Shown piece by piece: positions 1,285 to 30,410 of a stretch of 64,000 nucleotides of DNA. Origin of the DNA: Brachionus manjavacas (taxonomy: Eukaryota; Rotifera; Eurotatoria; Ploima; Brachionidae); NCBI GenBank assembly GCA_019054805.1, contig JAHQIY010000003.1:2728001-2792000 (forward strand), in the 5' to 3' direction. Under the pieces are notes generated by a model that was given only the letters and a program-made list of their open reading frames with translations, was not told the DNA's origin and did no database searches. The translations under genes were made by a program, and so were the position numbers. Within the stretch, counting starts at the first letter, position 1, and each line of letters opens with the position of its first letter.

Positions 1285-2681
1285 AATGTATGTATTTAAA
1301 TGCTACTTCCTTGGACAATAAACTTGATGAATACAGTGTTGTTATTGAAACATAAAGCCCACAAATTGTGGCAGTTAGTGAGACTTGGTTTAAGAGCAAC
1401 TCAAATGCAAACATTAAAGGATACAATTTGTACAGAAAGGACAGAAGTGATGGTCGCAGAGGCGGGGGTGTATGTCTCTACATTGATGAAAATATCGATT
1501 CATTTGAATTAAATGATGCAGGTTTTAATTTAAGTAAAATAGAACAAATTTGGGTAGTTGTTAACTTTAACTGTGAAAATTATTTAGTAGGCTGTCTTTA
1601 TAGGCCAAACGATTTTGTTGATATGAACGATTTTGCTTTAGTCTTCAAACAAGCTAAAGACTATGTGGATGAAAGAGGTTTTAAGGATATTCTAATAATG
1701 GGTGACTTTAACTTTCCATCAATCATCTGGTCAAATGGCTGTGTTTCAGAAATCTTAAACGAAAATAGCATCGAACATAAATTCAGCGAGACTCTAAGCG
1801 ACACTTTTTTATATCAGCATGTAAATGTTCCAACATTTCAAATGTCAAACGAAAAAGCTGTCAACACTTTGGATTTGATTTTCACGACTCAGTCTGGCAG
1901 TGTGTATGCAATCGATACAAAATTTGTGCTTGGTAACATTAATAAAGGACATCTGGTTATCTTTTACAATTTTGTACTCAAAAACAAGGTTAGTAAGGAA
2001 TCATATACTATTGAAAAATTTATTTATAGTAAAGCTGACTTTGAAAAAATTTCTGATTTTATATCAAATATTGATTGGGTGCACTTATTTGAGAATTTAA
2101 ATATTCAGGAAATGTACAATGAGTTTATTTTCTATGTCAGCGAAGCTAGTAATCGATTCATTCCAGTGACGGATGGCTCTAAAAAGAAAAGTCAAAGAAA
2201 AATCTCAAAACCTTGGATAAAAGATGATCTCAAGATCTTAATTAGGAATAAGAAAAATCTTAGATACAGGAACTGTTCATGTAACTGGAAGGATATGAAT
2301 CTTTATAATGATTACAAAAGTACCTGTAAATTAGTTTCTTCGGAAATAAAAAGAGCCAGACTAACTTATGAACAAAATTTAGTAGATAAAGCTAAGAAGA
2401 ATCCAAAATTATTATACAAATATCTAAATGATCAACAAGTAATCAGAGAATCAATCAAAGCATTAAAGAAGTCAAATAATGAATTAACACAAGAACCGAA
2501 AGAGATATCAAATCTACTAAATAAATGTTTTCAAGATGTTTTTGTTATTGAACAAGATGGGGAGCTTCCACCTTTTGTAGCTGAACTAAATGAAAACTGT
2601 TCAGAATATATTGGCATTGAACCAAATGATATTAGTTATGAAGTGGTTTATAAAAAATTTCAAAACCTTAATCAAAATTAA
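1285..2681 (+). pseudogene. LINE ORF2, endonuclease part
   Basis: The frame encodes an apurinic/apyrimidinic-like endonuclease. It starts with a LNATSL motif, continues with AVSETWF, then GGGVCLYI, and has the catalytic LIMGDFNFPSIIW block and TLDLIFT near its end. The linker to the reverse transcriptase follows (residues rich in Lys, KYLNDQQ). An in-frame stop lies near 1353 and another at 2679, after which the same frame continues directly into the reverse transcriptase. It nicks target DNA in target-primed reverse transcription when intact. Confidence 0.85.
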
Positions 2682-2684
2682 TCA

Positions 2685-3290
2685 TGTGGTGTAGACAAGC
2701 TTCATCCGCTATTGCTAAAAAACTGTGCAGACGCCTATACTGTTCCTTTAACTTTAATTTTCAGAAAGTCTTTATCTAATAGTCAGCTTCCAATACAATT
2801 CAGATCAGCAAATATTACTCCTTTGTTTAAAAAAGGTGATAAATCGACGGCCAGCAATTATCGTCCCGTATCTTTAACTTCAATTCCGTGCAAAATAATG
2901 GAAAGCATAATAAGAACCAAAATGGAAGACTATCTTTATAAGAACAATATTATATCTAAAGAACAGCATGGATTTGTCAGGAAAAAGTCATGTACATCTA
3001 ATCTTATGGAAACTCTAGATTTCATCTCAATGAGTCTAGACAAAAGTATTCCTGTTGATGTAAATCTGCTAGATTTTGCGAAAGCATTTGATACTGTTCC
3101 GCACAGACGACTAATAGCTAAATTGAAAGCGTATGGCTTTGATGGTCTGACACTAAAATGGATTGAAGCTTTCTTGAAAAATAGTAGACAACGAGTTGTT
3201 CAAGGTGAAATTTTGTCGGATTGGGTGGAGATTTTTAGCGGTGTACCACAAGGATCAGTGATTGGTCCACTTTTGTTCGTTTTGTAATTC
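2685..3290 (+). pseudogene. LINE ORF2, reverse transcriptase part
   Basis: Reverse transcriptase motifs appear in order: NYRPVSLTSIPCKIMES, EQHGFVRKKSC, LLDFAKAFDTVPHR (catalytic Asp region) and SGVPQGSVIGPLLF. A stop at about 3284 interrupts the frame. The catalytic YADD box follows in the same frame at about 3328-3340 (MYADDTKIFSQ), showing that the stop is a lesion inside the domain. This part synthesises cDNA from the element RNA. Confidence 0.88.
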
Positions 3291-4085
3291 AATGATCTAC
3301 CAAAAGGAATAGAGAATATTGTCAAAATGTATGCAGATGATACAAAAATATTCTCGCAAACGGTTTCAGAAATATGCGCAGTGAAACTTTAATCAGATTT
3401 AGATTTAATTTTCAAGTGGACTCAAGATTGGCTTCTTCTCTTCAACACATCAAAATGTGTGGTTATGCATTACGGTCATAAAAACAAAGAATTCACTTAT
3501 TCTATTAATGGTAAACAGTTATTAACGTCTGAAACCGAAAGAGATCTTGGAGTTATCTTCAATACAAATCTCAAATGGAAAAATCAAGTGATAGAGTGAT
3601 ACAAACAAAGCAAATCAAATGTTGGGTCGCATCAGGAAATCATTCGCTCGTTTTGATTGTAAGTTATTTAGATCATTGTATTTAACTTTTGTTCGTCCTC
3701 TTTTGGAATTTGCTGTGCCTGTATGGTCTCCATTTCTTAAGTCGGATTGTGAGAATCTTGAGAGGATTCAACGCAGAGCTACGAAATTTGTTTCTTCAAT
3801 TAGAAACAAACCGTATGAAAGCAGATTGAAGGCTTTAAACATTCCAAATCTGGTGGAAAGAAGAAAAAGAGGTGATCTAATTCAATTATACAAGTTCATG
3901 CATGGAATAGAATTGGTTGAAAAAAGCAACAATTTTAATGTCACCAAAATCCAAGGAAGAGGTCACTGCTTCAAATATCACAAAGAAATTTCGAGGCTCC
4001 AACATAGAGATAACTTTTTTTCAACAGAACCGCTAACATATGGAACTCACTGCCAAATCAATTAGTTGAAGCCCCTAATGTTAAC
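3291..4085 (+). pseudogene. LINE ORF2, YADD box and C-terminal region
   Basis: After the YADD box, the thumb and C-terminal parts typical of CR1-like elements follow: ERDLGVIF, then FVRPLLEFAVPVWSP, LERIQRRATKF and RRKRGDLIQLYKF. The frame has a stop near 3390 and shifts near 3600. The C-terminal 148 residues are open at 3619-4065. The 3' untranslated part (4066-4205) has a short hairpin-rich end followed by (TAC)n. The same C-terminal block recurs at 12948, 21747 and 54640 in related families. Confidence 0.82.
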
Positions 4086-7534: not shown

Positions 7535-10500
7535 TTAAAGTGAATCAATTAAAAACCAATTTTCCACAACTTTATCCCAATTTCTTCCCAACTCTAAACT
7601 ATCACATACATCTGGATGTTTGAGCTTTAAAAAGCGAGCCCTTTGGCAAAATGAGCGCACATGTTCCACAAACTCAAAGCCATAGGCAGCGTCAGATGAC
7701 TGAATTGTTTTCTCAATGGCTTCATTCAACTGCTCAAAACACATTATTTGAATTCTATCAGTGCTAAAAACTCTCACAACTAAAACCATTATTATCAAGT
7801 GAATCACTAGTTCTTTTATTTCGTCAGCTACTTGCTTGCCCAACGAATTCAGTCCCATAGAGACCAAAAAATTCATCAAAGGCATACAATCTAATTCACA
7901 TTTGTTGATTTTAATTTTAAAGTTTGATATCTCAATTTTGTCAAACGCTGGTAAGTTGGAACATAGCTCAAAAACGTTCACTTTTAAAAACTCGCGCAGA
8001 GTTTTTGTGTCAACAACTTTTATTTTTTTGTTGCTTTTGCTTGAATCTAAATCAGTCTTGTTTGTTACACAAGCTTCTATCGTAATTGATTCTTTTTTTC
8101 CTCTCAAAATTGGGCCCGATTGCTTATTAGAGCTAAATCGAGGCTTAATCGCGTTTAAATTAGTAGAACTTTTTTCTACTATTTGAGTAATTTTATTTTT
8201 AGCTAATTTATCCTTTTCTGTCCCAAGAGGCACAATATTTATTCTAGATGAAGATCCTTCAAAAAAATCAAATCCTACTTCAGCATCTTCTTCTTCTTCG
8301 AATTTTGTATCGCTTTTTTGTGGAAGGGCTGGTGAAAATAATGGCTTAGACTCTGTCTTAGTGAAAAAAAAATTTTCTCTATTGTATTCTTTTTTCTTTT
8401 TCTCCATCATATTTATAGAGCCAAAAGAAAATGACTTTTGATCCTTGCCAATGACCCTTGCCATTTGTTGTATTGGGGCTGCTTTGTTTCCTCTTGTTCC
8501 ACTATTGTATCCTCTCGTCTGAGAACCAAATGAAAATGAATCAGCTGAAGAAGATTCCATTGCCGTCATTTCTAAAGAATCTGCCCTTGCCATTTGTTGT
8601 AATGGGGCTGCTCTGGGTTGTTTCTGAATGACTGAGAAATCTGAACCACCTGATCTGCTTGAAAAGTAACGGAATCCAGGACCTGATTGACATGATGGGG
8701 CACCATAGATACTTTGTTTATCATTTTTATCAGTTTTATTTGTCTCAATTTCTTTAAAGTTCTCCTTTAGATCTACTGAGGCCTGTGAATTTTGCTCAAT
8801 TGAATTTGAAACCGGCACTTTAAGCGACTCTTCATTTTCAAGCTTCAATTCATGACACTCGTCAAAATCATCAGCATCAAAAGCTGCCAATTCATTTTCA
8901 TCGCTCTCATTTGAATGCACATCTGGAATAGAATAGTCCTCAGAGCTTTCTGTGTCGATTGATCTTGAGCTTGATTTTCTCCTTGAATTATTCTTAGCAT
9001 CATCATTCCTAATCTCAATAGGTCCTCCTCTGAGTCTTAGAACCAAATGAACTATTGAATTGTCCGTGATTCCATAGTCATATAACAAGCCTTTGTCTAG
9101 ATGCCTTGCTGATGCTACCAATGTTTGCTGTTCTAGTGGTATTCCCTCTTTATCGTGGATAACAGTTTTCAGATCATCAACTGTTTTAATTTCATTAAGT
9201 TGAACAGAGATGGTTCTACCAGTTAAAGTTTTGACGTAAATTTCCGGTCTAAAATTTCTAAGCTCATTGATGGCCTGGTCGATTTCAGAACTTTTTTGGC
9301 ACAATTCATAGCATTTGATCGCTTTGTCAATCATTGACCGCTTTTTATATTCATTAGCCATGAAGACTTTCATTTTGTGCGAGCTAATCAAGTCCTCGTT
9401 GTGTGAGTAGAAATTGAAAAGTCTGATTTGATCAGTCAAACTAATGTCATCAAGTGGAATGTCTTCTTTTTGTATCAGACTTTCTTGGTAGGCCATGTAG
9501 GGGAGTAAATCAATGGACGCGTCATCTTTTTTCAACAAGTCGTCGACCTCAACTTGCTCGCCCATCGACTCATTTGGCTCCCGGTCTTCAATGGCAATAA
9601 AACTTGTGTAATCACTGATTATACTAAATTTTTGGCTCAATTTAATTATTTTTTCCCTTAACTTTTGTTTGAGCAAATCATTTTGGATTTTGTCATCGGA
9701 GCACAAGATTCCGTGTTGCCAGTCATCTATCAAAGCCTTGGCTGTTAGTTTGTGTATTAGGTCTCCGTTTGTTATCATCAATTCAGGACAAGAGACCACA
9801 GTCTCGAATTCGTAGCCATTTATGGACGCTCTGAGCAATGCTTGTTGACAATTAGGCATGAAACCATAGGCTAGAACTCGACGCCCATTAAACAAACAAT
9901 TGATTTGTTTCGGAGCATAATCGTAATCAAAAGTCTCTTGGTCAAGATTGGTCTGGTCAAAATTTTGCCACTCAATGCGTATGTCACTCAAGGCTGCTGG
10001 CTGCCCAATTTTGTCCATTAGGTCATCGATTTTTTCTCTCCACTTTGACTGATTTTTCTCATCGTAAAAGTCATAATGAGATTTGGTCAAATTGGCTATT
10101 GATTTTAACAAATGATTGTTGTTTGTCAGATTGCCAATGCTGCATGCAAAGATTCTGCCATTGCTGTGTCCAGATAGGTAGGCGATTAGTTCATTGGGCC
10201 TGGTCATGTGACCGTCTGAAATCAGAACATAATTTTTGGACCGGTTTAGTCTGTCTTCTTTTTGAATAAAGTTGAGTAAGTCTGTGTTTCCTTTGCTGGC
10301 AGTTGCTTGCTCCATAATGAACTGGGTTGCTTGTTTCACCGTTTGAGAAGTGTTCGGAAGAGGATAAGGAAATAGATTGTGATAGTCTGTTCCAAAAATT
10401 GTCACATTGAATATGGAGTCTTTGGGCATGTAATTTAGCATCAAAAGAATTAGTTTTTTTGAAAGTCGAATCAAATTATTCTCGCTGAGAGAATTCGAGC

Positions 10501-10579
10501 AGTCAAGGATGAAATTTATCACTGGTTTTTCTTGTTTGGCTAACCGATCATCATTGCCAAATTCAGGATAAAATGAAAC
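7535..10579 (-). CDS. PARP4: PARP4 exon 4: vWA, ubiquitin, MVP-binding region
   Basis: The 3045-bp last exon begins VSFYPEFGND and runs into the vWA domain (NFILDCSNS, then VLISDGHMTRP and FACSIGN). A conserved IRDY/LPYMAYQ-type region follows. Next come a tetratricopeptide-like helix pair (AIKCYELCQKSSEIDQAI), the ubiquitin domain, an acidic Ser-rich linker and two copies of an AAP-x-QQMAR ... SFSFGS motif. The C-terminal vault-interaction region ends LELGRNWDKVVENW, aligning with LELGNDWD in human PARP4. It could be mistaken for a separate vWA-ubiquitin gene, but the acceptor, phase and colinearity tie it to exon 3. Confidence 0.92.
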   Translation of the reverse strand, partial: VSFYPEFGNDDRLAKQEKPVINFILDCSNSLSENNLIRLSKKLILLMLNYMPKDSIFNVTIFGTDYHNLFPYPLPNTSQTVKQATQFIMEQATASKGNTDLLNFIQKEDRLNRSKNYVLISDGHMTRPNELIAYLSGHSNGRIFACSIGNLTNNNHLLKSIANLTKSHYDFYDEKNQSKWREKIDDLMDKIGQPAALSDIRIEWQNFDQTNLDQETFDYDYAPKQINCLFNGRRVLAYGFMPNCQQALLRASINGYEFETVVSCPELMITNGDLIHKLTAKALIDDWQHGILCSDDKIQNDLLKQKLREKIIKLSQKFSIISDYTSFIAIEDREPNESMGEQVEVDDLLKKDDASIDLLPYMAYQESLIQKEDIPLDDISLTDQIRLFNFYSHNEDLISSHKMKVFMANEYKKRSMIDKAIKCYELCQKSSEIDQAINELRNFRPEIYVKTLTGRTISVQLNEIKTVDDLKTVIHDKEGIPLEQQTLVASARHLDKGLLYDYGITDNSIVHLVLRLRGGPIEIRNDDAKNNSRRKSSSRSIDTESSEDYSIPDVHSNESDENELAAFDADDFDECHELKLENEESLKVPVSNSIEQNSQASVDLKENFKEIETNKTDKNDKQSIYGAPSCQSGPGFRYFSSRSGGSDFSVIQKQPRAAPLQQMARADSLEMTAMESSSADSFSFGSQTRGYNSGTRGNKAAPIQQMARVIGKDQKSFSFGSINMMEKKKKEYNRENFFFTKTESKPLFSPALPQKSDTKFEEEEDAEVGFDFFEGSSSRINIVPLGTEKDKLAKNKITQIVEKSSTNLNAIKPRFSSNKQSGPILRGKKESITIEACVTNKTDLDSSKSNKKIKVVDTKTLREFLKVNVFELCSNLPAFDKIEISNFKIKINKCELDCMPLMNFLVSMGLNSLGKQVADEIKELVIHLIIMVLVVRVFSTDRIQIMCFEQLNEAIEKTIQSSDAAYGFEFVEHVRSFCQRARFLKLKHPDVCDSLELGRNWDKVVENWFLIDSL

Positions 10580-13500
10580 CTGAAAATACCAAATTAAAAT
10601 GGATTTTAATTTTTTTTTTTTAATTATTTATAAAAATTTTATCCAACTATTAGTGCTTTTAGCTTTTTTGGATTACAAACAAAAATTTTTAAATTCAAAT
10701 TGTCAAAAATTTTTAAAATTTAATAAAACAAAAGAATTTATTTTAATCGCTTTTGAAAATATCAAATTTGAACTATTTTAAATAAGGAATAAATTTAACT
10801 GATTTTAATATTTAAATAAGTTTAAATTTTAATTTTGTAAAATTTATCTATAAATTTAAATTACCGAAAATCGAATTTGTTATCTTAAAAAAAAATTTCA
10901 TATCTGATATTTTTATTTTTTTTACAATTTTCACCATTATTTATTTCGGCTAAAGTAAAATTGAATGCCCTTTTAGAAAAGATACTTTTTGTGGTAAACT
11001 GGATGGGGTCCGCATTGCCACGCAATTATAAAATGAATGTTTATAATAAAGAATAATATAAAGGACTATGAGGCCATAATCGAGTGACTTCAGACTTTCT
11101 TGGTAGACTTTTCAGTAAATTTAAGCTGATATCATGATAAAATATCAGCTTAAATTCACTTTTCGAGAAAATAAAATTAAATGGATTTTATGGGCTTGTA
11201 CCTAGCACTATATTCTAATTTTATTTTATTTTATTTTTTGTGAATAATACAAAATTATTATTAAAATTGTATAATAATAATTTTGCTCTTTTTTCAAAAA
11301 AGAGCACTAATTCAACACTAATTCAATTAAATCATCACTTTGTTCTAATGATCTTCACTAATTTAGTAAAATAAAAAAGAAATAAACAAAACTTAAAACA
11401 AAATATTAAACGAAATAAATAACTTAATTATCCGAATTTAGTTACATGTTACTAAATCAAATAATGACATGTCACTAAAAAATGAATAAATTTGACCCAT
11501 GGTAATAAAAAACATCCAACTTTAACATAGTTAATTCAATTTTTATTTTAAAAAGGATTTTATGTAAGCTTTAACAATTTTTAATATTTTTTAAAATGTT
11601 CACTTTTTGTCAACTTAATAAAGGATAATTAGTTGCAAAAAATAATTAATTAGCTGGAAATTGGTTTTCCTTAAAAAAGATTTAAATTTAACCTTTTTAT
11701 TGATTTAATATTTAACTTTTTTAATCTGTAATTCTATAAACATTATTTGAATAGATTTTATAACAAATTTATTAAAATTTTTTTTCACCACAAAAAAATT
11801 GCGTTGACCAGATATTTGATTAAATATGCAAAAATTATTTTTTTATTTTATTGAATTCGGCACAAAAATTGTGTTTTGTAGTGATTTGTGTTTAAAAGTT
11901 TTTGGTTTATGGGGAACCATTTATCTCTTTTTTTAAATGAAAAACTGATTCAATTACTGAATTATTGATGATTTATCTAAATTTGTGGTGAGGTTTACTG
12001 ACGTCCAAATAAAAATGTCATAAAAAGATCATGAAAAAACGGGTGTAGAATAAAAAATGGCATAAAGTTTAATTTACTATAAGAGTGGACAAGACCTTTC
12101 TCAATATTTTTCAAAATTTAAAATCAGGCTGATCCAAGCTTTAAAATAAATAAAAATTATATCGTAAGTTGAATTTTCAATAAGTTGTTAGCAATAGTTG
12201 TACGAAACCATCAAAAAAGATTTGTACAAGTTTTTAAAAAGCAACCAAAATTTGCCAAAAGCTGAACTTGTAAGGCGGTTCACTTTATAGAAGTACTGTT
12301 AGCAAGACGCTGGAGAGTGTAAAGAACAAGTACGTAAAAAAATTGAAGAAAAATTAGTGGTCTAGTTGGCTTTTTCACAACGCGGAATAAGCGAACCATA
12401 TTTTGTATCTAGTGGTTTAGCGGTCAATCAACATGTCTACCACTACAACTAAGAAACGACTTGAAACAATGATTAAAGGATATTATCAGGATGGCAATTG
12501 AGTATTTGGATCCGACTTAGCATTATCTCATTAAAGTACAGAATGTTGCCAAAGAAGTGAATCCAGCAAACGTACCAAAATCACGACCAATAGAAGAAAT
12601 CTGGATGATAAAGTTTATGAAGGGTATTAGAAGGCCAAAAATCTTATGCAATTCGGAAACAAAATTCGCACTTGCCTGAGGAATATGGACTCAAAGGTTG
12701 TACAGGAGCAAGCCAAGACTGTTCGCTCTAGGCTCGATATCATACGTCGTCATAGAGCTCAATACCTTAACTGATATTATTTTTTCAAAATAGGAGGGTT
12801 CAGTTTTAATTTAAAAAAAAAATAAAGCCTTTGTTAAATAAAAAATTTCTAATGATTAAAATAATTTTGTGCCATTTTTTATTCTACACCCGTTATACAG
12901 TGCCGGAAATTAACCTGTCACATCATATGATTTGAAATCAACTACCAATGAGTCAAACAACTATTGAACGAGATCTTGGAATTTATCTGACTGACGACTT
13001 AAAATGGGCACACCAGGCGACACAGGCAGCAAATAAAGCGAATGCAGTGTTGGGACAGCTCAAACAAGCCTTCAAGTGCTGGTTCATAAATACTTTTAAG
13101 CAGCTGTATGTCTCATTTTTTAGACCTCATTTAGAATATGCTGCAGAAGCTTGGAGTCCATGTACTAAAAAGGACTCGAACATTTTGGAACGAGTGCAAA
13201 GACGAGCTACGAAATTAATATTTAGTTTAAGAAATCTGGATTATGATAAAAGACTTACTATGTTAGGGTTGACGACACTCAAGACAAGACGAGATCGTGG
13301 AGACTTAATTGAAACCTTCAAAATAATGAATTGTTTTAGCGTAGTCAAATGGCAGAATCCGTACATTAAAAGTCATGCACAAACAAGCAATGGTCCAGCC
13401 GGTGGAATCCGAGGAAATCATAAAAGATTGACCAAGCAAATGTCAAGGATCAAAGTGAGAGAGAACTTTCTAACAAACAGAGTGGTGAATGCGTGGAACG

Positions 13501-16500
13501 AGTTACCGATAGAGGTTGTAAATGCAAAATCTAACATAATCTTTTTAAGACATATTTTAAAATCAGACAGCTACCATAGCAAGGCTAGATATAGTATTGC
13601 TCCGCAGTTAGTCTGCTGTAGCTTTTATTATTATTATTATTATTATTATTAACTAATACCAGAAAAAAAAATATTTTCATGCTTTTACATATAAAAGTTC
13701 AAATTTTAATTCACCTGATATTTTCTGATATCAAATGATAATAGCTGATATCTGCTGATATGAAGAAAGTTTAAAAAAATTATTTTAAATGATATTAGAT
13801 GATATGATGTGACAAGTTAATTTCCGGCCCTGTATTTATTTTTAAAATTAAGCTTTATTTAAAAAAAAATTGAAAAGTTTCTCCTGTGCATGGATAGAGA
13901 ATTCCAAAGGTGAGAACCAAATTAATTGGGTTTTTAAGGTACTTATCTTCGAGGCCTATATATATAGAATTTTTAGTTAGCTCTGATCGCATTCAACGCT
14001 AGTTTCAAAAGACGTGGTCTACGAATTTAAATTCAAAGACTAGAAATTCAGATAGCACTTTAGTTTTGAATTTCTGGAAATTTAATTTCAATTTTTACTT
14101 CGCTTTTCTATTTTTTGTTGTTGTTTTTTAGATTCACATTTTATAATTTTTTTCGTATAAAAAATTCAGAAAAAAATTTCAAATTTATTTTTTGTATCAA
14201 CGTGCCGGTATTCTTTAAATTTTTGTTTTTGCTATTTGTTTCAAAATTCACTACACTTCTGATTGACAGAAAAGTCAATTTTTGCAAGACAAATCTTCCA
14301 TCTTACATAGCAATACATTCCACTGAATTAACCCTTTGATATCAAGTCAAAAAATATGAAGCAATACATTTTTTGAATTAAAATTATTTTGAAAATCATG
14401 ATGAAATAAAAGCTTAAATTTACTTTTCGAGAAAAAAAATTAAATGGATTGTATGGGCTTGTACCTAGCACTATATTCTAATTTTATTTTATTTTATTTT
14501 TTGTGAATAAATCAAGTCCGGAACAAAACAAACTAATATTTCTATTCCAGTCCACCTATCTAATGATATTAAGAAAATAAAAATCTCCTTGTACTTACCA
14601 TACAAGCCCGACGGGTTTTATTTTCTTCTCTATCAAAGTATTCTTCAACAAACATTCTGGGCATGTGTATAGTAGCTATTTGAATAGCTATGATCAATGT
14701 GTCATCCTCGCTGTCTCCCAATTTTTTCTCCATTTCCAAAACAGCTTGACAAGCTGTCTTCTTAATCTTGATCGCATGAGTATAGCTCTGAATTGATCTT
14801 ATTTCAAAAGGCATTAGAACACATGCCTTAAATGATGACTTTTTAACAGCGCCCATTCGATTTATGTGTCTTGATACCACACTGTCTTGCAGATTCTCTC
14901 GCTCTTCAAAAGCCTTCCATTGACATATATTGCTGGGCAGCCTAAAATAAATCTGCTCATTTTGAATGTCCATCTCGGACACATAGGTTATCTTGATGAC
15001 ACATTTGGCCTTGGATGGCAAATTGCCCACATTCACTTTAAAAATTTCGTTTGTTTCTTGGTCTATTAGATAAGCGCCTTTGCCTTGCCGAATCGCTTCC
15101 TTGTACTCCTTTCTGGCCACTTCTTTTCTTTTACAAACACCGATCACATGCTTGTCATTTATAAACGCCTCAAAGTTACACACAGTTGCCGTGTCGACCA
15201 GCGGAAATAGATACTCTGCCTCAATGGGTCTATTTTCATTGTTCTCATACTCTTGATAAATAGTCACCTTGGACACCATGTCAATTATTTGGGCCCGAAC
15301 ATGAACCGACTTGAGGGGCAAATTTTTTCCATCTGATGTTTTTAAAGTTGTCTGGGCCTGGATGAATTTAGGCTCAGTGAAATCAATTTTATCAACTAGA
15401 GGCTCGCATTGCTCACTATTCTCATTGCACAGCAAATAATCAATTTTCGGAATGCTGACTGACACAGGCTTAACTTCAACCAAATATTTTATTCTACACT
15501 GATCAGGCCTGTACACACAGTACTCGCTGTCTTCAAATACCGACCCATTGTCAGCTGTCATCTTGACACCGTGAACACTGTCGTAGCCTTGCGGAGCCTC
15601 GCTCAAATTGTAGCTACACTCATAGAGCTCTTTACATTTTCCCAAAGCCACTTCGCATATTAGAACAAGGTGAGTGTGTTTGTTGCTGCTAGCTTTGGAA
15701 TACTTGACACTTGTTTTAAAACTATCCGAAAAGTAAATTCCGAAGCCGAGCATTTCAAGTGGATCTGGACCGTCAGGAGTGTCTGGCGAAAGAATGTTTT
15801 TGGGTGTTAAAAGACCACGTGATAAAATTCCAACAAAATTCGACACTTTACTACCATGAAAAAGCAATTGAACATTTTTTATGTTTTTATTAAAATTTAG
15901 CACTTCATTAGGCCTGTTAACTGCGTAAATGCTAAGTATTTCTAAGCTAGAGTCGAATTCAGAGGACATTTTTATCTGCTCGCTGATTGTGTTAAATTCC
16001 TGGTTTGAAAGAGAAGAAATGTGGCAACCAATGGAACGATAAATGGACTGGACAGAAGTCCTTGGACTCCAGTTGGTCTCTTCAGCTATGTTTAGCATGT
16101 CACGCAAAACTTGCATCAATTCAAATTGATCATTTAAATTTTTTTTGTTCAAAAGTGACTTTTTTTCATAAGAATGCCTAAATGGCAGAGAAGAAAAGTA
16201 GCTATTTGTGAAATTGGTTCTCTTTTCTCTGGGCTTGACAAACTCGTCTCGTTGATTGTACAAAATAAGCTCTGCTTTGTCCAGCATTGAGTTGGTTAAA
16301 CCAAAATTTTTTTCGTTCAGTTTGAATATGGTTTCAAGTTCACCAACAGATTCGGTCCAAATGTAGTTCAAAAAATTGGCCAGGTCATCAGAAACTTGCT
16401 TAGAATTGACCATTGAAGAAAAATAGTTGCTCTGCAATAGTAAAGAGCCAGCATTTTCTGGCAAAATTTGGTCGTAGTGAAAACGTTCTGTCATGTATCC

Positions 16501-19500
16501 CTTGGCTAAATGTTCAAATAATTCCTGTGCTTCAGGTCCTTCACTTGCGTAATAAGTTTTGACTGTGCGATCTGATTTTTTGATGTTTTCAATCCGAAGA
16601 CGGAATTGTTTATTGTTTGTATGAATTTCAAATATTACATGGCTTGTTCCGCTATTCTCCTTAAAAAATATAAATTTCAAATGATTATTATTTTTGATCA
16701 CAAAAATAATTAAAGAATTAATTAATGAAAATATATTAAAGTGTCATTTATTTTGATTAAACGTCAACTCAGACTTGTTTTTAAGTCACAGTTTTAAGTC
16801 TAAGTCACAAAAATTTAAGTCAAAGTTATGACTTGACTTAAATTTTTTTTTTTTTTTAAGTCAAAGTCATGACTTAAATTTTTTTTTTTTTTTTTTAAGT
16901 CAAGTCAATGACTTAAAATTTTTTTTTTTTTTTTTTAAGTCAAAGTCATGACTTAAAATTTTTTTTTTTTTTTTTAAGTCAAAGTCATGACTTAACTTAA
17001 ATTTTTTTTTTTTTTTAAGTCAAAGTCATGACTTAAATTTTTTTTTTCTTTTTTTAAGTCAAAGTCATGACTTAAAATTTTTTTTTTTTTTTTTTAAGTC
17101 AAGTCATGAGTTAGATTAGAAATACTTTTAATTATTTATTTCATTAAAATTGAGTATTATTGGTAGTGGATGATTGACCGTAACTTTGACTTGCCGCTTT
17201 TTTTTTAACGATTTTTTAAACTTAAAAATTTTTAAGTCATTGACTTGACTTAAAAAAAAAAAAATTTTTAAGTCATTGACTTGACTTAAAAAAAAAAAAA
17301 TTTTAAGTCATTGACTTGACTTAAAAAAAAAAAAATTTTAAGTCATTGACTTGACTTAAAAAAAAAAAAAAAATTTTAAGTCATTGACTTGACTTAAAAA
17401 AAAAAAAAAATAATTTTAAGTCATTGACTTGACTTAAAAAAAAAAAAAAAAAAAATCTAAGTCAAGTCATTGACTTGACTTGACTTAAGACTTGTGACTT
17501 AAAAACAACTCTGCGTCAACTAAAAAAAGATCAAATCGTCATTTATTTATATTAATTAGTCAACATAAAAATTAGTCTAGTGAATGTATGAATCGTAAAT
17601 TAAAAGTAATAGTTGTGATTTTAAGTAATTAGTTATCACATAATAAAATTAAATGTTATAAAGTAAAAAGTCAAAAAAAAAATTTTAATCATAAAAAAAT
17701 TAAGAAAATATTTTCAATTATTTCATTGCTTATAATTCCTTTTTTGGTCGTCCTACTCCTCTTTATTTTCCTAAAGGTATGTCGCAAGCTTCAGCTGGAA
17801 AGGACTCGAATAATCCTTGGCTTTAATCAACACCAATTATATGCTTCCACATTATTAAATGGGATAACAGCGTTATTGTAGGAATTTGCTGCTAGGGTAG
17901 TCTCATTATTACCTTCTTCTACCTCAGTTTCAATTAAAGTGTTCCTTAAGTTGTCTTGAGCTTCAATTTATTCATCGAAAGCCTCATGAATATCTTCATA
18001 ACCCCCCGATTCCGAATAAAATTATTTATTGGGGTCGTAAGATTCGAGCCATGGTTCATTGAAATAAGTTACCATTTTGACTTTGACAATTAATACATTT
18101 AATTTACATTTATTTTATTGACGTTTAATCAAAGTAAATGACGCTTTAATATGCGGTCCTAATTAATTTGGTGCCATCTGAATTAGATTAAAGATTTTAA
18201 ATCTCTAGAAACTAAGAATCCAATTTTTAAATTTTCATAGAATTTCAATCTAATGAATCAAAATAAATATTTTGAATCAAAAAAAATTTCGATGATTTTA
18301 TTAAAAAAAAACTTTATTTTCAAGAACAAAAAATTTTTAAGAAAAAACTTTTACTACTTGAAAATTCTAAATTGAAATAAGAAATGTGATCCTTTTTACA
18401 ATTTTCACTTTTTTTGATTAAAGCCAATTTTTTTTTGAATTTAAAATATATATATTTTTTTTCTTGAAATTATTCCTCTCTAAAAGAAAAATACACGAAT
18501 CTTGATCAGGTTGTTAAATAATTTTTGTTTAATTTATTATTGAATTATGAGAAATTGTTTTGTAAGGTTAGAATTTTTTTAGATCAAGACTAAAAAGGGT
18601 AGCAATATATTCAATTATGACATATTCAAACAGAATTCAAAAGTAAATTCAAACATTAAAAAAAATGGATACAAATTATTTAAATTTTACACAAATTTCA
18701 ATTTAAAAGTAAATTTTCAATCGAAATTGAATATTGTATTTTAATTTTCTTTATATTAAATTTTAAAATTTTAATCTTTTTAATTTTCGAATTTAAAACT
18801 TTTTTTGAGTTATATTTTAATATGCCATATAAAATTAAAAACGTAGTTAAAAACTGTCAAAAATCATTTTAAAAATAAATATTTATAAATAAAGTTTTAT
18901 TCGAAAAATTGGAAGCAAGTAATTCTATTTCGGTTAAATGATCAACTAGAATTCTTTTGTATCAAAAGGTACTTAAAAAGCTGATTTAAATTTAATCACA
19001 AATTTTAAATTGTTAAAAAAAAGGTCATATTAAAAAATTAGAGAGAAATGTTTGCTATTGAAAAAAATACTGCCAATGTAGTAAAGTGGCATGATCACAC
19101 TATAATTAATTTATACAGATTTAACTTATTTTTGAATAGAACTGCATTTTTCTAGCTAATTTAAATAAAAAGATTAAACCAAAATCTAAGCTTATCATTC
19201 ACATAGTTGGACTGTTTTATAATGATATCAAATTTAATGTAAATTTACATGAAAGACAATCCATTTTAGTATTTGATAACCACTTGATTCAAATTCACCT
19301 GAATACGGATCATTATCTGCGCTAAAGGACCTGAATTTACTCAAGTCAAATCTGTTCGATATTCTCTTTTCATTATCTAAATAAAACAAATTTAAAACAT
19401 TTATAAGATAACCAAAACAATTTTTTTTAACTTTCTGTGAAGATTATTCCTTTCTTAAAATTATTTTCAATTGATTTGTCTTTGATGATGAAATCTTCGA

Positions 19501-19765
19501 CCTTAAGCTCTTGATTTGCCTCCAGAATTGACTTGTAAAAAAAGTCAATATGTATTATTGGAATTTTGAGTTTAAAAGCGGTCCGACATTTGTATGTTTC
19601 AATATTTGATTTATCATCAATCACTAAGTACTTTGATTTTTTATTCAAAATAAACGAAACTGTTGCACCATTTGACGTAAGAAAATCAATGATAGATTTT
19701 TTTTTCTTGTAAGGAGTTTTAACACTCAAATCCAAACTAATCATACCATCAAGTTTTAGTTGCAT
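7535..19765 (-). CDS. PARP4: Vault PARP (PARP4-like), with internal ubiquitin
   Basis: Four minus-strand exons join in frame: 19765-19432, 19376-19249, 16659-14599 and 10579-7535, giving 1855 residues (human PARP4 is ~1724). The domain order matches PARP4: BRCT (~1-110), helical regulatory region (~200-400), PARP catalytic (~400-560), VIT (~600-730), vWA (~855-1040) and C-terminal vault-protein interaction region (~1690-1855). PARP4 adds ADP-ribose to proteins and rides in the vault ribonucleoprotein by binding MVP. The H-Y-E triad is kept (His422, Tyr463, Glu533), as is the vWA metal site DCSNS. A ubiquitin domain at residues 1287-1360 is absent from human PARP4. All splice sites are GT-AG. 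Exon joins and phases were checked by hand; expression is not shown. Confidence 0.93.
9023..9244 (-). other. Ubiquitin domain embedded in PARP4
   Basis: 74 codons align end to end with ubiquitin: IYVKTLTGRTISV at the start, DKEGIPLEQQTLV in the middle and HLVLRLRGG at the end, with one residue deleted near position 54. More than half of the positions match by eye. Lys6, Lys27 and Lys33 are kept; Lys11 and Lys48 are Arg, Lys29 is Val and Lys63 is Asp. The Ile44 patch residue is Val. The terminal Gly-Gly is followed by Pro and more protein, so it is not a free C-terminus unless cleaved. Confidence 0.93.
10580..11139. other. PARP4 intron 3, distal part
   Basis: AT-rich intron sequence with no gene or repeat recognised until the 11140 direct repeat. 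Confidence 0.6.
11140..11245. repeat. Direct repeat copy A in PARP4 intron
   Basis: About 105 bp that recurs in the same orientation at 14403-14508 with roughly 93% identity by eye. It contains GGGCTTGTACCTAGCACTAT and ends in a TTTTATTTTATTTTATTTTT run. The 3.2 kb between the copies holds a mariner relic and a MITE. It may be the end of a repeated element. Confidence 0.75.
12038..12894 (+). mobile_element. Decayed mariner/Tc1-type element
   Basis: Perfect 24-bp terminal inverted repeats lie at 12038-12061 and 12871-12894, beginning AACGGGTGTAGAATAAAAAA. The 857-bp element carries broken plus-strand frames reading SQRGISEPYFVSSGLAVNQ and later FGSDLALSH and RTKITTNRRNLD. These recall the DDE transposase blocks of the Tc1/mariner group (ISKPYF..SG.AINQ, ..DLA.SH). 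Several stops and frameshifts make it inactive. It lies in PARP4 intron 3, antisense to the gene. Confidence 0.8.
12898..13832. mobile_element. CAG-ended TIR element carrying a LINE 3' end
   Basis: TIRs of about 31 bp at 12898-12928 and 13802-13832 (CAGTGCCGGAAATTAAC on the left, CAGGGCCGGAAATTAAC on the right) are flanked by TA on both sides (12896-12897, 13833-13834). This is the pattern of Tc1/mariner-type MITEs. Most of the interior is the C-terminal part of a LINE with its (TTA)n tail. It begins 3 bp after the mariner relic ends. Confidence 0.8.
12940..13652 (+). pseudogene. 5'-truncated LINE, C-terminal region
   Basis: A 234-residue open frame has the CR1-like C-terminal blocks ERDLGIYLTDDLKW, FFRPHLEYAAEAWSP, LERVQRRATKLIF, TRRDRGDLIETFKI and ENFLTNRVVNAWNELP. 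The translated tail of tyrosines is just the (TTA)n microsatellite end at 13627-13650. The endonuclease and polymerase core are missing. A related copy of the same family lies at 54640-54968. It sits inside a TIR element in PARP4 intron 3. Confidence 0.85.
14403..14508. repeat. Direct repeat copy B in PARP4 intron
   Basis: Second copy of the 11140-11245 repeat, ending 90 bp from the PARP4 exon 3 donor. Same orientation and same TTTTATTTTATTTTATTTTT end. Confidence 0.75.
14599..16659 (-). CDS. PARP4: PARP4 exon 3: PARP and VIT domains
   Basis: The exon encodes 687 residues. The PARP catalytic fold shows LLFHGSKVSNFVGILSRGLL, FGIYFSDSFKTSVKYS, ALGKCKELYE, APQGYDSVHG and FEDSEYCVYRPDQ, giving an H-Y-E triad as in PARPs able to make chains. 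The VIT domain follows: YLFPLVDTATVCNFEAFIND, GKGAYLIDQE and VGNLPSKAKCVIKITYV, close to human PARP4. The acceptor is TTTTTTAAG at 16660; the donor GTAAGT is at 14598. Reading past the donor gives a short non-homologous tail, so splicing is required. Confidence 0.93.
16770..17105. repeat. Tandem array, (T)n + AAGTCAAAGTCATGACTTAA
   Basis: About eight ~33-40-bp units, each a T-run of 9-18 followed by AAGTCAAAGTCATGACTTAA. Each unit core is itself palindromic (AAGTCATGACTT). It forms the left arm of a large inverted structure. Confidence 0.9.
17220..17510. repeat. Tandem array, AAGTCATTGACTTGACTT + (A)n
   Basis: About seven units of AAGTCATTGACTTGACTT followed by an A-run of 11-19. It is the reverse-oriented counterpart of the 16770-17105 array. 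The outer edges (GTTTTTAAGTCACA and its complement) also pair. Confidence 0.9.
18153..19248. other. PARP4 intron 2 remainder
   Basis: AT-rich, with no gene, repeat or element recognised. Confidence 0.6.
19249..19376 (-). CDS. PARP4: PARP4 exon 2: linker
   Basis: This 128-bp exon is too short to stand out by length. It is bounded by TTTATTTAG acceptor and GTAAAT donor sequences and encodes a Ser/Asp-rich linker ending SGYQILKWIVFH. It restores phase between exons 1 and 3 exactly (1 + 128 = 3n), and its end aligns with the KYNTLEKVG segment of human PARP4. Supported by phase and position rather than strong similarity. Confidence 0.7.
19432..19765 (-). CDS. PARP4: PARP4 exon 1: BRCT domain
   Basis: The exon starts with an ATG (MQLKLDGMISL) and encodes one BRCT repeat: SIIDFLTSNGATVSF, then KYLVIDD and IPIIHIDFFYKSI, aligning with the N-terminal BRCT of human PARP4. 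It ends in phase 1 at a GTTAAA donor. A 55-bp intron follows. No upstream exon is needed, because human PARP4 also starts directly with BRCT. Confidence 0.85.
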
Positions 19766-21029: not shown

Positions 21030-21770
21030 TAAACCCATTAGTAGTAGTAGTAGTAGTAGTAAATATAACTGCGACCCGACTTAAGTCGAGTTAAGCCATT
21101 AGGCTGTGGCAGTTCTTTGTCTTAACACCATTTGAACGTTCATTCGTTCTAAACCAGTCATCAAGCTACGCTTTGAACGAATTTAATAAAGTTGCTTGCA
21201 CTACCCTCTCTGGTAAGCTGTTCCAATCGTTGACCACTCTGTTTGAAATGTAGTTGAATCGTACTGGGCAATTTTTAATAAGTTCTCTTGAAATCACTTT
21301 CGAGTGACCTCTTAAGTTATAATTATTTTTTGCTGACATATGCTTAATACCATTCGTGAAGTTGACAGCTTCTAACCCATTAACGATCTTGTGAAATTGG
21401 ATTAAATCGCCCCTTCTTCTTCTTGTATCAAGTGACATAAGATCCATCCTCTCTAACCGCTCTTTATATTCAATTTTTTTAAAACCCGGAATCATTCTCA
21501 TCGCTCTACGTTGAACTTTTTCCAATTGATTCTTTTCACCTTCAAAAAATGGAGTCCAGACACTAATCCCGTATTCTTTTAGCGGTCTCACTAATGATGT
21601 GTAAAGGAGCTTAACCAAATTTACATCAAAATACTCAAAATTCTTCCATATCATACCCAGTATCTTGTTTGCTCTGCCAGAAGAGTAGTCAACCTGTGCC
21701 CTCCATTTAAGATCGCTCTGAAAATAGACACCAAGATCCTTTTCCAAACTGGTTGTATTTAAGGACTTTT
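21030..21770 (-). pseudogene. 5'-truncated LINE with (TAC)n tail
   Basis: A 193-residue open frame (21747-21166) carries the CR1-like C-terminal blocks EKDLGVYFQSDLKW, SLVRPLKEYGISVWTP, LEKVQRRAMRMIP and RRGDLIQFHKIV, ending NRVVNDWNSLPERVV. The 3' untranslated part ends in (TAC)n at about 21037-21060. This is directly followed on the same strand by the 5' end of the ORF1 copy at 21028, giving a head-to-tail LINE junction. Confidence 0.85.
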
Positions 21771-22868
21771 GATGTTGTTTTTTATTTTAGATCAAAAAGG
21801 GTGTACAGTAAAATTCAGATAAAAAGGAATAAATGAATCAAAAAAAAATTTAATTTTTATTAAAATTTTGGTGATTGACACCCGGTGTTGTTTTTTTACA
21901 GTTTTGATGGGCGTAGGTTTAAGAAATAGGCCTTTAACACAAAAAATTTTTTTAATCTTAATAAATTTAATTTTAGAAAATTAATAAATCAACTTTTTGG
22001 AAAAATATTTAATAATTTTATTGAAAAATAAACCAAAAGAACCAAGATTTATGAAAGAAACATTAAATATATATATTTCAATTTTGGGATAAAGGGTCAA
22101 TTCCGATGTAGTTTCTATTTCCAATTTTGATTGCAATTAAAAATTAAATAAAATGAGCAATAAATTTTTATGCCAATTATTTTCAGAATTAAAAAATAGA
22201 CAAAACTTTTAATTTTTAAAATAAATAAAAAATCGATTAAAAAAGTCTTATTTTCATCCCTTTTATTCCTTTTCTTTTTAGTTAGTGCAAAGAAATCTTG
22301 AATTGAATGCTACTTAAATTATGTTTGTTCTTGGGATTTCGGTTTCGATTCCTCCTAAAAAAACAAAAAAATTAATTTAGAAATAAAATTTTTAAAATAA
22401 AATAAATAATTGATTTATATCTCTGAAAAGTTATTTGGCTGTTTTAGCCTTGGAAATGTCAAATACAAGCAAAAACTTTTTTTCCTATAAAATTTTTTGA
22501 ATAAGAAAAATCGGCATTTAGTCGACGCTTACAAACCAAATTGTTCCAAGATTAACAGTAATTTTTTTTTGTCTCAATCTTTTTGTTCTGACACACTATT
22601 TTTTACTCGGATCCGCTTGAACACCATGTAGAAATCATTTTAATACAGAAAAGTTAAACATTTTACTTTTTAAAATGAAGCAAAGAGATTACATCTCATT
22701 TTTTATTAAATTTAACAAGTGTATGAGTAATAAAACAAATTTGTAACCTTTTTTAGACATTTTTATATACCTCAAATTGAATATTCATTTTGTTTATTAG
22801 CTTAAATAAATTAATATAAAATAGAATTGGTTTAAAACTGAATAAAATTTAATCTTTAGAACAAAATA
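21771..22868. other. Intergenic, upstream of serine protease
   Basis: AT-rich, with no gene or element recognised. It should contain the protease promoter, but no motif can be assigned. Confidence 0.5.
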
Positions 22869-27681: not shown

Positions 27682-28012
27682 GTTAGGGTCAAAATTGTCA
27701 GTATCAGTGCAGTGCAAAATTGTCATAAAAAATTGTCATAGGAAAAAAAAACAAAATAGTCATCGTAAAATTGTCAAACCAATTAAAAAATAAATTGAAT
27801 GTCAAATCTGATTGGCGATTAATTTCAAAGAAAATTTATCTTTGAATTAAATAAGAAGAATATTAAAAGAAGCTAAGATAAAAATGAAACAATTAGAAGA
27901 AAAATTTTAATTAATTAATTTAAAAAGTAGTTGAGTCATATAAATATAAATTGAAAATGAAAATAAATAACTTATCTACTCATACTGTTAATCAAAATCT
28001 TAAAATCAAAAA

Positions 28013-29453
28013 ATGGAACAAGAAATATTATATCTTGACACCGAATACAAACAAATTATTTTCGAAAAGCACCGTTATCAAAAAAACGAAAAAAAATCAA
28101 GTTGGTACAGATGCGTCAATAGAAAATGCAGTGCACTTTATAACTTAGAGGCAAGAAAAAGAAATAATGTAGAACATTACCATCCACCTTTATCCAACTG
28201 TGAAATTGATTGCATTATGTTTTTCAAGCAACTTATCCAAAATGTCATAAAAGATCATGACGTTCCTCTCATGGATGCATACAACCGTCAGTACCAAAAA
28301 CTAACCGAGAAATATTCATATAATGAAATAGCCGAATATTGGAAACCATTCACCACTGTTAAGTCAAATTTGAGATATCACAGGAACCAGACTAAACCAA
28401 ACAATCCAAAACAAACAAAAGATATACAAATCAACGAAATATACTCAACCATTAACTGCGAACAATTTTTACAATTTGATAACAAAGACAATAAAAATCG
28501 AATATTGATCTTCATGTCTCCTATTGGAATGAAAATATTGTGTAATTCAGTAAGATGGCATTTTGACGGGACTTTCAAAACGTGCCCAACTCATTTTCTC
28601 CAAATTTTCTCCGTTCATGGTTATTATCAGAACCAAATGTACCCAGCATGTTATATTCTTTTACAGAACAAAGAGCGTGAGACTTATGTCGAAGCTTTAT
28701 CTAACCTTAAAGAAATTTTCACTCGTAATAATTGTTCAATCGTTTTACAAGAAACGCTTTCTGATTTCGAGCTAGCCATGATTCAAGCAATCAGCCTCGA
28801 ATTCGAAAATGTAAAAATTTATGGATGTTGGTTTCACTTTAATCAAGCCATTATACGTTATCTATTCAATAAATGTAATAAACAAGCACTTTATTACAAC
28901 GATTACAATTTTAAACAATGGATACGAAAATTTAGCGCGTTAGCACTTGTCCCACTCAATGATGTCCAAACTGGCTGGAACATTATTTTGAGCACAGTTC
29001 CAGTTATTCTTGACAGTGATATATTAAAATTTATTAAGTATTTTGTCAATACTTGGTTACAAGGCAAGTATGGATTTTCATGGAATCATTTCGACAACAA
29101 TGGTCCACGAACAAATAACCACCTCGAAGGTTATCATTCAAAATTATCGTCAATTCCATCATCAAAATCAAATAATGTGTTAACATTTATCAATATGATC
29201 AAAAAGTCGGCGTCTCAAGTTCACAGCGAATTCCATGCAAACGAGCGTAATCCAATCGCAGAGCCAAAGCAATTATCAAAAAACAAAAAAAGATCAAGTT
29301 TTTGTTACATTACAAGAACAATTCAGTAAGCAGATTCTCACATTTGAACAATATTTTGACAAATTATCTGCACACATTATGGAACCATATGGTACAAGTC
29401 TGATGAAATTTGACCAAGATGAAGAAGAACTGAATGTCGAGAAAGTTGGTTAA
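28013..29453 (+). CDS. FLYWCH + MULE transposase
   Basis: The frame from the ATG at 28013 is open for 438 codons (to 29329). The N-terminus is a FLYWCH-type zinc finger (SWYRCVNRKCSALYNL, then EHYHPP). The DDE core shows WHFDGTFKTCP (Asp185), LSDFELAM (Asp251), then YGCWFHFNQAI, the CWxHF-type signature of MULEs, and TNNHLEGYH (Glu372). Near 29290, in an A-rich tract, protein-like sequence shifts to another frame (QVFVTLQEQFSKQILTFEQYF) and continues to a TAA at 29451. The same frame then runs straight on into the protease. So there is one apparent frameshift near the end of the transposase; the catalytic domain itself is uninterrupted. Confidence 0.9.
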
Positions 29454-30410
29454 AAGAGAAAAAGGAAGATCGCTTTCGATAACCCTCTAAAAAACTTAGA
29501 TTTTTTAAAAACAATCGATTTTGTGAATCTAACAATCAAGCTAGATCAACCAAATAATGAACAAGCAAGTGAATTATTTTCAAAAGAACTCTTCACAATA
29601 CTTAAGAGTCAGATTCACATTTACAAAACATTTGTTCTTAATAATCAACCGGTTCGTCAAGATCTATTCGACGCTCTTATCAATTTTTCAAGTGAACGTT
29701 TAGTCAAAACAGAGCCAATATTAGTATCAGAGCCGTGCAAGAAGAGACAAAAATTAGAAGATTCATCTGAAGTTCAATTCTTGGAAGTCCGCTCATACAC
29801 TAATTACGAGAGAGTGCCTATTTCTTTACAATTTTTAAAACTAGAAAAAAATCAAGAGTTGACCAATTTTTATATTACTGAGTTCCAGAATTTGATTTAC
29901 AAGAAATATGATGTCCAAGGATTATTCAGGCCTGATTATTATACTCTCAAAAATGCACCTTTTAATCCTGAAACAATACACGAGTCAATTTTTATTCAAG
30001 TTTTACATGCTGAAAACCACTGGATTGTTTTGGCTAATTTGCATCCTTCATACGAAGATCCTGACAGTTTTAATAATTGGTTCATTTATGATAGTCTTAA
30101 TAACCCTAAACACTATCTCAATCTTATTAAAACGGTCTTAAAAAGATTCTCGGGTGGCTCTAGATTTTTTGACGTTGTCCATGTCAATGTTACAAAACAA
30201 AAAGGTAACAAAGACTGTGGCTTATTTGCCCTTGGATATGCATTATCTTTAGCTATGAATCTAGATCCTGGTAAATTAGTCTTTGATCAAACAAAAATCA
30301 GAGATGAGTTTAATACTATAATAAAATGTACTGATTTTTTTTTGTTTACTCATTATTCTGTTGAAAATTATTCCCCAAAATTTTCTAAACTCTGTATTGA
30401 TTTAGAATAA
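29454..30410 (+). CDS. ULP1-like C48 cysteine protease of MULE
   Basis: A frame of about 318 codons follows the TAA at 29451 and is in phase with the transposase tail before it. No ATG is obvious near its start; a GTG lies at 29523. The first residues (KRKRKIAFDNPLKN) look like a nuclear localisation signal. The C-terminal half has the C48 peptidase signature: ENHWIVLAN (His), WFIYDSLN (Asp) and KQKGNKDCGLFALGYAL (Gln and catalytic Cys). C48 proteases cleave SUMO or similar isopeptide or precursor bonds. Similar protease genes ride in plant MULEs (Kaonashi type) and other DNA transposons. It could be a separate gene, the second half of a fusion, or reached by splicing. Confidence 0.88.
   Translation, partial: KRKRKIAFDNPLKNLDFLKTIDFVNLTIKLDQPNNEQASELFSKELFTILKSQIHIYKTFVLNNQPVRQDLFDALINFSSERLVKTEPILVSEPCKKRQKLEDSSEVQFLEVRSYTNYERVPISLQFLKLEKNQELTNFYITEFQNLIYKKYDVQGLFRPDYYTLKNAPFNPETIHESIFIQVLHAENHWIVLANLHPSYEDPDSFNNWFIYDSLNNPKHYLNLIKTVLKRFSGGSRFFDVVHVNVTKQKGNKDCGLFALGYALSLAMNLDPGKLVFDQTKIRDEFNTIIKCTDFFLFTHYSVENYSPKFSKLCIDLE

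Follow-up and report, generated by a model that had tools for sequence, protein, structure and literature searches.

The PARP4 (vault PARP) gene found on the minus strand of a 64,000-nucleotide stretch of Brachionus manjavacas DNA (contig JAHQIY010000003.1, positions 2,728,001 to 2,792,000; the window hereafter) encodes a protein in which a ubiquitin domain is lodged between the vWA domain and the MVP-interacting C-terminus. The place and order of the domain, its distribution, and the selective preservation of its tail are observed in the sequences compared, and its fold is predicted. Our reading, held at a probability of roughly 0.5, is that PARP4 carries a fixed mono-ubiquitin in cis, one of several modules in an old cassette derived from hub proteins, onto which ubiquitin-reading proteins dock. 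The cassette would be made up of the C-terminal half of 14-3-3, ubiquitin, and an N-terminal piece of actin, joined in places by Hsp70, SNARE, Snf7, and calmodulin-like pieces, and would sit on the tether between the ADP-ribosyltransferase/ITIH-like body and the MVP-binding domain.

The ubiquitin domain of the window protein

The gene model has four exons and yields 1855 residues. The protein features a BRCT domain, a PARP domain followed by VIT and vWA, and a C-terminal MVP-interacting domain (a modest match), as PARP4 and the clade-5 vault PARPs do; human PARP4 has the same domains in the same order. H422, Y463, and E533 of the protein model are candidates for the H-Y-E triad, which we take to be the motif of active PARPs. 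The model of the vWA domain finds its best fold match in ITIH1 (6fpy). Among the matches listed, the nearest protein is that of Brachionus calyciflorus (66% identity over the part searched). A single VIT match, the one within the PARP4 gene, was found in the 114 Mb (61 contigs) of the genome, and a second PARP4 was rejected on this ground. MVP repeats are present elsewhere in the genome: two copies with identical profile scores lie about 6 kb apart at G000:C5:5424100-5431014, and represent either a tandem duplication of the vault shell gene that happened recently, or a repeat in the assembly.

Residues 1287-1360 match the ubiquitin profile, and are predicted to adopt the beta-grasp fold of the family. 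The structure look-up by VIA spans residues 70-146 of the model, corresponding to ubiquitin, and barely covers the four helices located upstream. The first-pass annotation of this DNA had described a full ubiquitin fold at this place in a vault PARP, ending in LRLRGG followed by Pro and with both Lys48 and Lys63 replaced; profile and predicted fold agree with it, the tail is as described, and the two lysines are changed to R and D, respectively. It further stated that most surface patches are kept; the tail and the I36 patch are whole, and the I44 face is identical to ubiquitin at 3 of 8 residues (R42T, I44V, G47A, K48R, Q49H). As judged by its residues, the domain would not work as a normal ubiquitin: the Gly-Gly is internal, followed by Pro, and K48 and K63 are gone. 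Ubiquitin is in frame with another protein also in the ubiquitin-ribosomal protein fusions and in polyubiquitin, which are cleaved after the Gly-Gly, the released ubiquitin being then conjugated; the PARP4 domain differs from these in being internal, in having Pro after the Gly-Gly, and in lacking K48 and K63.

The C-terminal half of 14-3-3 resides in the rotifer-like proteins P0003 and P0006 at the place occupied in the window protein by the helical linker. The linker matches the C-terminal half of 14-3-3 at E 0.17, and a 14-3-3 remnant, undetectable at this level, was rejected. That the whole arrangement is an artefact of assembly or gene modelling is hardly credible, and was rejected as well: the domain lies in one long open frame, and the same arrangement is found in B. 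calyciflorus and in other entries.

Distribution of cassette pieces among PARP4 proteins

The window protein and 227 database entries, 228 PARP4 proteins in all, were gathered from three protein searches (best 120 of 245, of 598, and of 914 matches). The list from the second search was mostly made up of polyubiquitins, which were left out, and contributed P0196; P0011, not a PARP4, was left out too. Profiles were built from Pfam-scanned pieces, with proteins of the set, the window ubiquitin among them, as seeds, and run on all 228 proteins. Vertebrates (99 entries) were assigned by source name, P0073 by its Pfam column. Species are fewer than entries throughout, because many entries are isoforms.

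Ubiquitin domains longer than 60 residues were detected in 37 of the 228 listed proteins, six of them rotifer-like (window protein included), and two from the sponge Dysidea; the others come from at least 26 mollusc species. In all 37, the domain starts 32-166 residues past the VIT-vWA core. N-terminal actin pieces were found in 37 proteins, C-terminal halves of 14-3-3 in 31 (some matches being weak, down to E 1e-3), and Hsp70 substrate-binding pieces in 14; SNARE (8), calmodulin-like (6), Snf7 (4), and PDZ (1) pieces are rarer. The order 14-3-3, ubiquitin, actin is the same in all 15 listed proteins having two or three of these modules. At least one cassette piece was found in 99 of the 129 non-vertebrate entries; the profile search found none, be it ubiquitin, 14-3-3, actin, or other, in the 99 vertebrate entries. 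Ubiquitin is restricted to Dysidea among the sponges listed, and the Capsaspora entry has 14-3-3 and actin pieces. The pieces are real by the alignments obtained: one from Dysidea matches residues 10-74 of actin (chain 4cbw_A, E 1.9e-30), one from Owenia matches positions 135-229 of 14-3-3 zeta (E 8.3e-28), and one from Dreissena matches the substrate-binding domain of Hsp70 (E 6.2e-32).

The lack of a ubiquitin domain in human PARP4, asserted at first pass, is in line with these counts, and related invertebrates were found to have the internal ubiquitin, in rotifer, mollusc, and sponge entries. The same entries do away with a one-species novelty. At first pass, no described PARP4 with such a domain was known; the Pfam annotation of listed entries already carries the ubiquitin label. 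As to the literature, according to Perina et al. 2014 some PARP4-like proteins contain 14-3-3 and others actin, and two clade-5 PARPs of Acanthamoeba have 'ubiquitin-related domains' (PMC4245714). Those proteins likewise carry extra hub-protein domains on a clade-5 PARP; the section devoted to such domains names no animal PARP4 ubiquitin, no fixed order, and no preserved tail or D-loop (PMC4245714). Citarelli et al. 2010 list BRCT, VIT, and vWA for the vPARP clade, and mention no ubiquitin domain in the passages covered (PMC2964712). In the titles and abstract openings listed by searches of open-access literature, subscription papers being mostly outside, neither an animal PARP4 ubiquitin nor preserved tails or D-loops are described. 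The human stretch corresponding to the cassette is pictured as a disordered link (PMC10450202).

Residues preserved in the ubiquitin and actin pieces

Upon removal of the same-gene rows P0283, P0300, and P0023, 34 ubiquitin domains were compared. Identity to ubiquitin is 83% in the tail (residues 71-76) and 49% in the body (Wilcoxon p 2.3e-5, on related rows). By faces, identity is 85% for tail residues 72 and 74-76, 75% for the I44 face, 74% for the I36 patch, and 54% for the core, down to 39% for the D58 face, and 28% for both the F4 face and other exposed residues. Clade-balanced values were reached in 0.3% (I44 face), 0.7% (tail), and 3% (I36 patch) of 20000 random draws of exposed positions. 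K63 is kept in 1 and K48 in 19 of the 34 domains. A motif at positions 24-26 is common to sponge, rotifer, and mollusc copies; it may reflect convergence, and was not used.

The Gly-Gly is kept in 28 of the 34 copies, followed by P in 18, G in 7, L in 2, and H in 1; among 20 other ubiquitin-like matches of the genome, taken as control, 4 have it (Fisher p 9.5e-6), one of the four being SUMO-like. Another internal ubiquitin-like domain of the genome (L012, G000:C1:1643427-1643800) ends in IRGGP. Its protein looks like ZFAND4/ANUBL1, and shares with PARP4 an internal domain ending in RGG-Pro, the host protein being different. GG-Pro may be a repeated way to make a ubiquitin uncleavable.

These data bear on two functions put forward at first pass. 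One is cleavage after the Gly-Gly. In the form considered here, a protease that reads LRLRGG might cut the tether behind the tail, or inside it, and release the catalytic body from its vault. Few parts of the domain are kept as well as the tail, which sits between the catalytic body and the MVP-binding domain. Yet a Pro following Gly-Gly strongly slows deubiquitinases, and Pro is found there in 18 of the 28 GG-bearing copies, that of the window included, as in L012; cleavage is disfavoured, and we regard this use of the tail as unlikely. The other is ADP-ribosylation of the ubiquitin by the PARP domain of the same chain. PARP9/DTX3L ADP-ribosylates ubiquitin at Gly76, and PARP4 has the catalytic triad by sequence. 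Gly76 is however in a peptide bond here, so that its carboxyl is not free to react; Thr66 persists in only 12 of the 34 domains, and Arg42 is T in the window copy. Nothing was found in favour of modification in cis, which we rate as very improbable.

The actin pieces behave similarly. Of 36 pieces longer than 45 residues, 28 were analyzed after discarding 8 near-duplicates; identity to actin is 98% in the D-loop (residues 37-51) and 55% elsewhere (see for example P0018 1448-1514 and P0340 1701-1769). Two unrelated modules therefore erode while one determinant in each stays identical to the parent protein, given the figures for the ubiquitin tail (83% vs. 49%) and the D-loop (98% vs. 55%).

Variability of the tether

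A FastTree tree of 118 rows was derived from 140 entries, upon exclusion of 7 without a clean core and 15 near-duplicates. On this tree, the modules require a minimum of 9 (ubiquitin), 16 (actin), and 13 (14-3-3) changes, gains being indistinguishable from losses. The rows P0003-P0016 in the tree (P0011 excluded) cluster with the window protein and B. calyciflorus (15 rows, local support 100), a grouping that is weak because FastTree was run on long branches. At least 9 changes on such branches fit neither a single nor a repeated origin of the ubiquitin decisively.

Two Dysidea avara entries, P0018 and P0196, labelled isoforms X2 and X3 by the source, are 91-99% identical over residues 1-1300, and 59% in the next hundred; over 1401-2100, 21-40% of aligned residues (gapped) are identical, and 64% over 2101-2200. 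Their modules differ, being ubiquitin-actin-SNARE in one and ubiquitin-Snf7 in the other. The window protein and that of B. calyciflorus diverge most past the ubiquitin. By these comparisons, the tether is the variable part of PARP4.

Further variation was observed in single tethers. In P0317 of Mytilus edulis, residues 1240-1570 comprise two calmodulin-like EF-hand pairs and, after them, an almost complete Snf7/ESCRT-III domain. In P0020 and P0022 (oysters) and P0247 (Antedon), long arginine-serine (RS) repeats and YSPTSPS-like heptads were seen by eye, resembling SR proteins and the C-terminal domain (CTD) of RNA polymerase II; Pfam lists the CTD repeat in P0247. Some tethers have repeats like those of the ribosomal P-stalk, the RNA polymerase II CTD, or RS proteins, which low complexity can mimic.

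Ubiquitin, actin, and Hsp70, the parents of the recurrent modules, are abundant and conserved genes. Sequences from abundant transcripts might have been captured by chance in a tolerant, disordered tether, with no specific partner, and the many gains or losses on the tree would agree with this. Chance capture would not, however, hold the ubiquitin tail at 83% against 49% in the body from sponges to molluscs, nor the D-loop at 98% against 55% from Capsaspora to molluscs, and we think it quite improbable.

In plants, the integrated decoys of NLR receptors are host proteins under attack, copied and joined to a rapidly evolving protein, and they vary between relatives. The PARP4 cassette is similar in the presence of hub-protein copies and in their turnover between relatives; NLRs are immune receptors, whereas for PARP4 a host-virus role is only suggested (PMC4038475), and no attacker is known. 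The same source describes a disordered PARP4 region, more than 300 residues long and encoded by the largest exon, that changes quickly in several lineages of mammals and shows recurrent positive selection in primates; a role as interface between host and pathogen has been proposed for it (PMC4038475). A second report places this region between the ITIH-like part and the MVPID (PMC10450202). A preprint assigns NADase activity to the vault protein TEP1, and reports that bacterial relatives of its domain have an antiphage role (PMC13174449).

The cassette may be a bait for parasite or virus factors that handle ubiquitin, actin, or 14-3-3, and so serve to catch, modify, or sense them. Such a bait would itself be a form of docking, the partners being foreign instead of host proteins. 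The fall in identity in the Dysidea pair, the turnover of modules on the tree, the proposed interface, and determinants kept identical to the parent, as mimicry requires, speak for it. Against it, no pathogen partner is known, fast evolution is shared by ordinary disordered linkers, docking of host partners would keep the same residues, and the Dysidea entries are called isoforms. We regard a bait as possible, and put it forward tentatively. With similar reserve, one can imagine the vault PARP as an ancient multi-target bait, with determinants resembling those of much-attacked hub proteins (ubiquitin tail, actin D-loop, 14-3-3 C-terminal half, others by lineage) set along the tether inside the vault, which would act as trap or sensor for enzymes attacking these hubs while PARP4 marks the catch; vertebrates would have kept the fast tether and lost recognisable modules. 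Tether variability, selection in primates, and the TEP1 data allow the cassette to be a bait, but do not show it.

Proposed docking of ubiquitin-reading proteins

Docking on a fixed ubiquitin fits best among the functions offered at first pass. Since its C-terminus lies inside the chain, the PARP4 ubiquitin could not be conjugated; it would be released poorly by deubiquitinases because of the Pro after the Gly-Gly, and K48 and K63 chains could not be seeded on it. It would thus be read and not transferred, the tail and the neighbouring hydrophobic patch holding deubiquitinase-like enzymes or ubiquitin-binding domains. Because the tether is placed between the transferase and the vault wall, proteins docked on it would come close to both the vault and the PARP active site. 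RLRGG would hardly be preserved in a mere spacer.

Several points weigh against docking. In the window copy, binding via the I44 face may be weak, as 3 of 8 residues are kept; with this face mostly lost, and the tail and the I36 patch whole, binding must fall mainly to the tail here. The Gly-Gly is missing from six of the 34 copies, and in three of these, P0005, P0318, and P0294, the tail is gone altogether. The control tails that could be aligned match ubiquitin in 57% of 23 cells (16% of all cells), and the tail contrast depends on this account on counting missing control tails, some of which may be hidden by exon-wise cutting. The 20 controls keep the I44 face at 39% vs. 18% for other exposed residues (aligned cells), so the I44 excess is partly general to ubiquitin-like folds. 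The face percentages use assumed, not computed, definitions, and the tests overstate independence, because the rows are related. The diverged-actin control is weak too: most rows of the genome end before the D-loop, and the two distinct actin relatives aligning through it show 47% and 27% identity there, 13% and 41% in the rest. Of the first-pass interpretation as a whole, the internal ubiquitin, its place, its tail, and its lack in the vertebrate entries stand; the insert is not peculiar to this animal, cleavage is disfavoured, and nothing found speaks for ADP-ribosylation in cis; docking on vaults is retained, with the reserve that the I44 face is mostly lost here.

Gene model and other features of the window

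Coordinates of the PARP4 exons and domains are reported in Table 1.

Table 1. Exons, domains, and other segments of the B. manjavacas PARP4 gene, in window positions
Feature	Position	Strand	Basis
PARP4 exon 1	19432..19765	-	gene model
BRCT match, in exon 1	19526-19705	-	Pfam E 1.6e-7
PARP4 exon 2, small	19249..19376	-	donor picked by frame and GT; least certain junctions
PARP4 exon 3	14599..16659	-	gene model, GT-AG
PARP catalytic domain	15469..16002	-	Pfam E 1.2e-34
VIT domain	14983..15315	-	Pfam E 2e-35
PARP4 exon 4, last and largest (vWA, helical linker, ubiquitin, tether, MVP-interacting domain)	7535..10579	-	
vWA domain	10073..10516	-	Pfam VWA_3 E 2.7e-11
Four-helix linker preceding ubiquitin	9257..9439	-	structure model
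Ubiquitin domain, residues 1287-1360	9023..9244	-	profile match and predicted fold
LRLRGG tail of ubiquitin	9023..9040	-	
Pro 1361, immediately C-terminal to Gly-Gly	9020..9022	-	
Low-complexity tether, ubiquitin to MVP-interacting domain	7889..9022	-	modelled to residue 1400; predicted local distance difference test (pLDDT) <50 there
MVP-interacting (MINT/MVPID) domain	7562..7888	-	modest match to human PARP4 1600-1701, E 0.0054

The second PARP4 intron contains AAGTCA-rich tandem repeats in both orientations (16780-17500, by eye). Pieces of retrotransposons lacking long terminal repeats (non-LTR) were found at 1356-4065 on the plus strand (endonuclease match), and at 12936-13652 on the plus and 21166-21786 on the minus strand (reverse-transcriptase ends, by eye); one of the reverse-transcriptase-like pieces lies in the third PARP4 intron. 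At 28004-30410 on the plus strand, a MULE transposase frame precedes one for a C48 (Ulp1-type) protease.

Implications

The function of vaults has been open for decades, and look-alikes of hub proteins on the tether of a vault enzyme name concrete candidate binding partners. The segment carrying them is the one under positive selection in primates, and the idea that it serves as docking site or bait can be tested. The PARP4 copies are also natural examples of a ubiquitin reduced to what stays once conjugation is irrelevant, and the cassette hints at the purpose of this part of the vault enzyme.
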